A stretch of 40,986 bases of DNA. Origin: Gammaproteobacteria bacterium (GTDB lineage Bacteria; Pseudomonadota; Gammaproteobacteria; PS1; Pseudothioglobaceae). The position numbers and the translations under genes were made by a program. The notes under the pieces are model-generated. The model worked only from the letters and a program-made list of their open reading frames with translations. It was not told the origin of the DNA and made no database searches. This document shows, piece by piece, positions 19,224-21,216 of the stretch (positions are counted from its first letter, which is position 1; the number at the start of each line of letters is the position of its first letter). The DNA is taken from NCBI GenBank assembly GCA_016845205.1, contig JAERTA010000013.1:1-40986 (forward strand), given 5' to 3'.

Positions 19224-19790
19224 ATGAAGTTTTTACCTGTTTTATTAATATTGTCCTCAAGTACAGCTAGTGCATTTTGGGGTGGAAGTAACACTAATTG
19301 GATGCCATTTGGTACGGGCACCGGATACAACAATCAATCACCTTGGAGCAACAATTCTAATTGGAATCCTTTTGGTACTGGTGGAAACTGGAGCCCTAGA
19401 AACGATGCGGCTAATTTAAGTCGTTATGGTGCACGTCCTAAAACGCTTATAAAATATCGGAAAGACCCAAGGTTTCAAGTCAGTAACACCATTCCTGAAA
19501 TTCATAATAGAATAAGACCTTCTAATTGGTTAACAGAAACTGACTTTGCCTCCACCATAAAAGACACGGGCGATCAGGACAAAGCCTTTGTTGTTGACGA
19601 TTTTGCAGCTTTTGGTTTGTCAGAAGGTTATGCGCGTGCCAAGGCAGAAACGTTTGGTGTTGGTAGAGTATTGAGAGACCACGCTTCACAACACACAAAT
19701 GATATTTTTGGTGATAGGGGTGCTATTTATGGCAAGCAAGGCTATGCACTTTCACCCGCCGCTTCATCAACACAAAAAATAGACAATTAA
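19224..19790 (+). CDS. Secreted NW(M/N)PFG-motif protein, sulfur-globule-like
   Basis: Signal peptide with ASA|FWGG cleavage-like site, then NTNWMPFGTGTGYNNQSPWSNNSNWNPFGTGGNWSPR; GAGAAG RBS; TATAAT at 19187-19192. Confidence 0.7.
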   Translation: MKFLPVLLILSSSTASAFWGGSNTNWMPFGTGTGYNNQSPWSNNSNWNPFGTGGNWSPRNDAANLSRYGARPKTLIKYRKDPRFQVSNTIPEIHNRIRPSNWLTETDFASTIKDTGDQDKAFVVDDFAAFGLSEGYARAKAETFGVGRVLRDHASQHTNDIFGDRGAIYGKQGYALSPAASSTQKIDN

Positions 19791-20166: not shown

Positions 20167-20194
20167 TTGACTTCTAATATAGTTAATGTATAAT
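20167..20194 (+). promoter_or_regulatory. Sigma70-like promoter for the repeat-protein gene
   Basis: TTGACT - 16 bp - TATAAT. Confidence 0.75.
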
Positions 20195-20285
20195 GCACAC
20201 CTATCAAGACGGCTCAAGTCTGATACTTAAAACCTCTCAATAATGAGTGTGTTAAATTTAAAAATAATTAATCTAGGAGATTAAC

Positions 20286-20801
20286 ATGAAAAAAATTATC
20301 GCTATCGCTACTTTAGTAGCTGCTACATCAGCTTCTGCTGGTTTTTTTGGTAACAACAACGACTCTAACTGGGGTCCATTCAACGGTTCTAACAACTGGG
20401 GTCCTTTCGATTCAGGTTCTAACTTTGGTCCAATGAACGGTGGTTCTAACTGGGGTCCTTTCTCTGGTGGTAACAACATGGGTCCATTCAACGGTGGTTC
20501 TAACGCTGGTCCTTTCAACGGTGCTTCTAACTGGGGTCCATTCAAGGGTGGTAACAACTGGTTAAACAACACTGATTTCGGTCTTAAGTTTGACACTAAG
20601 AACACAACTGACACTAACGCTTCTGGCGCTGCTGACGGTTCTGCTAAAGGTGTTGCTGACGCTAACGCTAAAGGTGTAGCAGACGCTTACGCTAAAGGTC
20701 AAGCAGATGCATTCGCTAAGGCACAAGCTGACGCTTACGCTAAAGGTTATGCAGATGCTAAAGCTGCAGGTACTGCAACTTCAACTGAAGTAGCTAAGTA
20801 A
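20286..20801 (+). CDS. Secreted two-repeat protein, sulfur-globule-like
   Basis: Signal peptide MKKIIAIATLVAATSASA; seven 9-aa NGGSNWGPF-type units (aa 24-86) then six 8-aa GVADAYAK-type units (aa 114-161); AGGAG-type RBS. Confidence 0.85.
   Translation: MKKIIAIATLVAATSASAGFFGNNNDSNWGPFNGSNNWGPFDSGSNFGPMNGGSNWGPFSGGNNMGPFNGGSNAGPFNGASNWGPFKGGNNWLNNTDFGLKFDTKNTTDTNASGAADGSAKGVADANAKGVADAYAKGQADAFAKAQADAYAKGYADAKAAGTATSTEVAK
20355..20543 (+). repeat. In-frame 27-bp repeat array, 7 units (9 aa: N-G-x-S-N-W-G-P-F)
   Basis: NNDSNWGPF NGSNNWGPF DSGSNFGPM NGGSNWGPF SGGNNMGPF NGGSNAGPF NGASNWGPF. Confidence 0.93.
20625..20768 (+). repeat. In-frame 24-bp repeat array, 6 units (8 aa: G-x-A-D-A-x-A-K)
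   Basis: GAADGSAK GVADANAK GVADAYAK GQADAFAK AQADAYAK GYADAKAA. Confidence 0.92.
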
Positions 20802-20870: not shown

Positions 20871-20899
20871 AAAAAGCCACTCTTCGGAGTGGCTTTTTT
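20871..20899 (+). terminator. Strong intrinsic terminator after repeat-protein gene
   Basis: AAAAAGCCACTC-TTCG-GAGTGGCTTTTTT, with a UUCG tetraloop. Confidence 0.95.
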
Positions 20900-20955: not shown

Positions 20956-21216
20956 ATGAAAACATTAATAACAATTGCTACATTGGTAGCTGCTACATCA
21001 GCTTTGGCTGATTTTCATCCAAACACATACGACTGGAATAACGACATGGTTGCACCAACTGTAGAGTCTACTGCAACGCCAGCCGCTTTAGTTGTTATGC
21101 AACAGCCACAAACAAGAATGGCTTATACTCAAGACAACGGTATCTTTGGATACAACCCATACAACATTATGGATCCTCGTTGGATGCTAGAAGAGATGAG
21201 CAATGTTATCGACTAA
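20956..21216 (+). CDS. Small secreted protein with the same leader as the repeat protein; N-P-Y-N-I-M-D-P-R-W-M C-terminus
   Basis: MKTLITIATLVAATSALA leader nearly identical to MKKIIAIATLVAATSASA; AAGGAAAT upstream of ATG. Confidence 0.75.
   Translation: MKTLITIATLVAATSALADFHPNTYDWNNDMVAPTVESTATPAALVVMQQPQTRMAYTQDNGIFGYNPYNIMDPRWMLEEMSNVID

Follow-up and report, generated by a model that had tools for sequence, protein, structure and literature searches.

The window analysed here is a stretch of 40,986 nucleotides from a gammaproteobacterial genome of 1.24 Mb in 115 contigs (G000). It contains a gene for a small protein composed of two different tandem repeats, flanked on each side by the gene of another putative exported protein. 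The features discussed below are as follows:

19224 to 19790, plus strand: upstream putative exported protein, 188 amino acids, a diverged relative with NWNPFG motifs
20167 to 20194, plus strand: promoter-like site TTGACT-16-TATAAT, agreeing with 11 of 12 consensus positions (eight sites of such quality in the region against a shuffle mean of 7.3, hence no excess)
20275 to 20279, plus strand: ribosome-binding site AGGAG, 6 bases 5' of the ATG, read from the sequence
20286 to 20801, plus strand: open reading frame of the two-repeat protein, 171 amino acids, stop codon counted in, with homologs found
20286 to 20339, plus strand: Sec-type signal peptide, residues 1-18, MKKIIAIATLVAATSASA, recognised by eye and kept in the family
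20355 to 20543, plus strand: first array, seven 9-residue units, residues 24-86, supported by TRF, lag identity and translation
20544 to 20624, plus strand: linker, residues 87-113, KGGNNWLNNTDFGLKFDTKNTTDTNAS, non-repeated and conserved in the family alignment
20625 to 20768, plus strand: second array, six 8-residue units, residues 114-161, supported by repeat analyses, with a helix predicted at low confidence
20871 to 20898, plus strand: terminator hairpin AAAAAGCCACTC-TTCG-GAGTGGCTTTTT, symmetrical, which the scan scored on the minus strand
20956 to 21216, plus strand: downstream putative exported protein, 86 amino acids, of a second N/W/Y-rich family with the motif NPYxxxDPRWxxEEMxN

The reading frame starts with the ATG at 20286 and its stop codon ends at 20801 (sequence and ORF check), giving a 17-kDa precursor. 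The putative signal peptide has a basic n-region, a hydrophobic core and ASA before the mature end. It is followed by the first array (units 1-4 NNDSNWGPF, NGSNNWGPF, DSGSNFGPM and NGGSNWGPF; units 5-7 SGGNNMGPF, NGGSNAGPF and NGASNWGPF), the linker centred on NNWLNNTDFGLKFDTKNTTDT, the second array (GAADGSAK, GVADANAK, GVADAYAK, GQADAFAK, AQADAYAK and GYADAKAA) and a short tail. A sequence-only reading of this DNA had described a 171-residue protein with seven 9-residue units (NGGSNWGPF) and six 8-residue units (GxADAxAK), and both arrays are confirmed from the sequence. TRF finds 7.2 copies of a 27-bp repeat (67% matches, score 118) and 4.9 copies of a 24-bp repeat (76% matches, score 103), while identity at a lag of 9 is 0.55 across the first array region and identity at a lag of 8 is 0.71 across the second. 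A chance origin of the repeats is ruled out, since none of 5000 same-residue shuffles reaches the observed identities at any of the lags examined (2 to 19). The aromatic pair that this reading assigned to every unit is found in four of the seven, but NFGPM, NMGPF and NAGPF have a single aromatic residue. Three features go beyond its description: the 18-residue Sec-type signal peptide, a linker that is conserved but not repeated, and a sequence free of cysteine.

The gene looks monocistronic, because the promoter-like site and AGGAG lie upstream and the hairpin terminator downstream. Its codon adaptation (0.80) exceeds that of 2000 out of 2000 codon-randomised versions of the same protein and matches that of the ribosomal-protein genes within the window, a codon usage that suggests high expression.

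AlphaFold2 models of the protein show no confident fold. The whole-protein model (mean pLDDT 43.9) contains a single helix at 125-161, and the model from residue 89 onward (pLDDT 51.7) has a helix over 113-169 in full-length numbering. The charged helix proposed earlier for the second array is thus predicted by both models, but with low confidence; it would fit the sequence, in which a small residue occurs at every fourth position and D and K alternate at i, i+4. The models place no strand in the first array, where pLDDT is about 40, leaving the suggestion of a beta-like or adhesive array unsupported.

The two-repeat protein belongs to a multicopy family. G000 holds six family matches, comprising the window copy, four copies in tandem on contig C67 and one on C114. 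One of the tandem copies is a variant with a different C-terminus; variants of this kind (locus L035:3993-4616, L012, L034 and others) have GPF units and a C-terminus GYARADGKYAGELQNR...GYGRQGYLGY, and are found at the end of the tandem array. In one complete genome, two copies score equally (G009:C1:9104-9625 and 861254-861775), which suggests recent duplication or gene conversion. The family occurs in 28 of the 36 Thioglobaceae (SUP05) genomes; no member was found among the 21 genomes from elsewhere in the class. Scanning public genome contigs yields 63 family loci, whose titles refer to SUP05, Candidatus Thioglobus, Ruthia, Ruthturnera, Vesicomyosocius, Thiodubiliella or Bathymodiolus symbionts, or only Gammaproteobacteria or Proteobacteria. 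The sole locus titled Piscirickettsiaceae (DTVJ01000195, 5811 bases) agrees in contig number and length with C195 of G008, a genome in the window's own genus. The family is restricted to the SUP05/Thioglobaceae lineage of marine sulfur oxidisers. A phage origin is rejected, with no matches in 50,697 phage records.

The layout is constant across 24 aligned members, with 6-7 NxGPz units (three in one member) and usually 5-7 ADA/ADG units in the second array. In the NxGPz units, x is W in most cases, followed in frequency by M, A or F, and z is almost invariably F or M. All members have a signal peptide, and cysteine is absent from their 4158 residues. Values of dN/dS between family genes are 0.17-0.38, indicating purifying selection; when units of the window gene are compared with one another, their N.GPF core gives 0.25. 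The repeats are old and maintained at the protein level. Low-complexity sequence and variable paralogs are also what a neutral repeat expansion with no function of its own would leave, but recent slippage without selection is ruled out by these ratios, and the conservation of the layout across genera and retention of the family in reduced clam-symbiont genomes further oppose this explanation, which we consider scarcely credible. The sequence-only reading turned on the repeats being kept in orthologs; the check was run and they are conserved. Its picture of a two-module structural protein is upheld by the conserved layout and repeat number and by codon usage, but not in its beta-like first array.

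The genes on either side of the two-repeat gene also have relatives in the lineage. The upstream protein (19224-19790) has a linker similar to that of the two-repeat protein, and a relative adjoins a family copy in the isolate EF1 (G028) and several other genomes. The downstream protein belongs to the DPRW family, which a profile detects in 29 of 57 genomes, all Thioglobaceae, with members in EF1; it was not found by profile in any g3 or g9 genome, PS1 and NP1 included. The DPRW family shares the phyletic pattern of the two-repeat family. Its genes are often in tandem (L148:1196-2138; L149:1-257; L146, L147, L151, L152), its proteins lack cysteine, and no Pfam match was found. A sequence on contig C39 of G000, considered as a further partial two-repeat copy, was rejected as such and is a member of the DPRW family. 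A third putative exported family, with the motif FLDFNxYGxxYxxNDWPxWTPMxWMEK, is encoded directly 5' of the DPRW tandem genes (L145-L148, L151; e.g. L148:703-1116).

The distribution of the two-repeat family was compared with that of dsrA, used as a marker for the oxidation of stored sulfur by rDsr, with genes split over contig ends (G002, G013, G024) scored as present. Among the 36 Thioglobaceae genomes, 27 have both, 6 have neither, 1 has the family only and 2 have dsrA only (Fisher p 9.5e-5), so that dsrA accompanies the family in 27 of 28 genomes. The family-only genome (G008) is 86% complete, and the two dsrA-only genomes, of genus g6, are 86-87% complete. G023 has dsrA and lacks both the two-repeat and DPRW families, in a genome that is only 87% complete. 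At the level of genera, 8 carry both dsrA and the family, 2 lack both and 1 carries dsrA alone (p about 0.055), so that few independent events underlie the association and much of it could stem from shared ancestry. SoxC is useless as a discriminating marker, since no Thioglobaceae genome passes its cut-off.

Co-occurrence with dsrA would also be expected of a periplasmic protein that assists sulfide or thiosulfate oxidation, acting as a scaffold or sulfur carrier with Fcc or Sox and not as a coat. One copy in G000 (L036) lies 2.6 kb from the genes for the flavocytochrome c sulfide dehydrogenase flavoprotein and its cytochrome, a position that agrees with such a role. Most copies adjoin housekeeping genes (e.g. 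icd, ilvA, dksA, or tpiA and secG) and not sulfur genes, which counts against the coat explanation favored below. The family has neither cysteine nor a recognisable domain, and the six diverged low-complexity repeat copies look structural, which makes an accessory role improbable.

Three named strains offer a comparison within the lineage. EF1 (Ca. Thioglobus autotrophicus) has four full family copies and one variant, and its published description reports periplasmic sulfur globules that are depleted upon sulfur starvation (PMC6509183), documenting sulfur storage in a family-bearing organism. In PS1 (Ca. T. singularis, G020) and NP1 (G010), the family was not found by profile even at E<=1, and there is no dsrA above the cut-off. 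This contrast bears on two further explanations. The first is a general cell-envelope structural protein with no link to sulfur, a periplasmic matrix or S-layer-associated anchor that stiffens pleomorphic cells. An exported repetitive protein would suit a lineage whose cells are reported to bear a prominent S-layer and to be plastic in shape (PMC6509183), but the S-layers described there, built of a 34-kDa protein, occur in EF1, PS1 and NP1 alike, whereas PS1 and NP1 lack the 17-kDa family, the pattern of which tracks dsrA. We regard such a role as unlikely. The second, a protein of the cell surface that would serve biofilm formation or contact with a host as an adhesin or matrix component, is close to the adhesive, self-assembling character proposed from the sequence at the outset, and would draw on the aromatic, Gly/Asn-rich repeats and the frequency of the family in mussel and clam symbionts. 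The family is nevertheless also present in the free-living EF1 and in planktonic SUP05, and absent from free-living PS1 and NP1, which are likewise exposed to the sea; in its members, no domain of the anchor, secretion or autotransporter type scores above cut-off. This explanation is very improbable.

Pfam, NCBIfam and PDB searches with the two-repeat protein return only weak low-complexity matches, and a known domain is accordingly rejected. For comparison with known sulfur globule proteins, 16 SGP-type proteins of other families were gathered outward from a weak class-level match; many of them alternate Gly and Tyr, as do the canonical Sgps of Chromatiaceae (PMC8877833). The Pfam SGP model (PF17228) recognises 14 of the 16, and dsrA is above cut-off in 10 of their 12 source genomes, in pieces in one and undetected in one. 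The same model has no match at E<=1 in any of the 36 Thioglobaceae genomes or among the 24 aligned family members. Profile comparison with SGP shows similarity limited to the signal peptides when these are included. Without them, hhalign gives a probability of 0.74% and a score of 16.6, below the reversed control (19.0); the best mature-chain alignment sets the NNWLNNTDFGLKFDTK linker against a segment of the SGP core. Homology to canonical SGP is therefore rejected, and the protein is not a detectable member of that family. The weak class-level matches to the two-repeat profile are likewise rejected as family members, being canonical SGP-type proteins or spurious. Two SGP-type proteins, L112 (G253) and L118 (G137), have a core DVEWDLNLDTKLKG that resembles the two-repeat linker, a resemblance that is not significant; proteins with this core are a possible bridge between the two families.

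Since no PF17228 protein is present in the Thioglobaceae genomes searched, another coat protein is needed in this lineage. The explanation that we favor, with a probability of roughly two in three, is that the two-repeat protein is a structural envelope protein of the periplasmic sulfur globules in SUP05/Thioglobaceae. It draws further on the signal peptide and lack of cysteine, the codon adaptation, the dN/dS values, the co-occurrence with dsrA, the contrast of EF1 with PS1 and NP1, and the copy near the flavocytochrome c genes; against it weigh the housekeeping surroundings of most copies, the few independent events behind the association, the exception G023 and the lack of mature-chain homology to SGP. 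By analogy, the protein probably functions as an Sgp does, although membership of the SGP family is not detectable. In the proposed mechanism, the protein would be synthesized abundantly and exported by Sec. The GPF array, with W, F or M spaced by Asn and Gly, would act as a flexible layer of multivalent stickers, wetting both the hydrophobic surface of the sulfur and adjacent chains, and the GxADAxAK array would form a helix, pair with further copies and in this way knit the coat together. Lacking cysteine, the coat would be spared reaction with polysulfide.

The DPRW family is a second candidate for the globule-coat job. It is an even call whether the SUP05/Thioglobaceae coat is built from proteins unrelated to the canonical Sgps, namely the two-module GPF/ADAxAK family and the DPRW family, of independent origin or diverged beyond recognition. 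If so, the coat of SUP05, among the ocean's most abundant sulfur storers, would be a separate invention, in which a single chain carries both a sticker array and an array for helix pairing. SUP05 and the related clam and mussel symbionts store energy as elemental sulfur, on which their dark carbon fixation draws, and even in model bacteria little is known about how such sulfur is wrapped. This lineage, in which conserved, multicopy two-module proteins occur and no canonical globule protein was detected, provides a defined gene set to test, and these proteins would offer a second design from which to learn the requirements of a sulfur coat.

Several known systems share features with the two-repeat protein. 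SgpA, SgpB and SgpC of Allochromatium vinosum and relatives are alike in being small, exported, repetitive and aromatic-rich, in occurring in several copies and together with dsrA, in being encoded by separate transcription units and, in the set collected here, in lacking cysteine; they differ in their alternating Gly and Tyr and have neither GPF nor ADAxAK arrays. SgpD of A. vinosum (PMC10386293) also has a Sec signal peptide, repeats and a monocistronic gene, and its AlphaFold model consists of helices and low-confidence loops; as described, it differs in its regularly spaced prolines in P-X2-P patterns and in the high confidence of its helices. The GxxxG-type helices of FliH have a small residue at every fourth position, as does the C-terminal array of the two-repeat protein, which gives a weak match to the NCBIfam FliH model (E 0.0036, 16.9 bits against a cut-off of 180). 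The two-repeat protein differs in its putative export and in having no other FliH region, and the likeness is only one of pattern. For EF1, the published account reports four putative sgp genes and three detected, differentially expressed Sgp proteins (PMC6509183). As judged from the equal number, the four full family copies found here are probably these genes, although the DPRW family could be what was meant there, instead or as well. The two-repeat sequence type is new relative to Pfam SGP, although the putative sgp genes already reported probably include its EF1 members.
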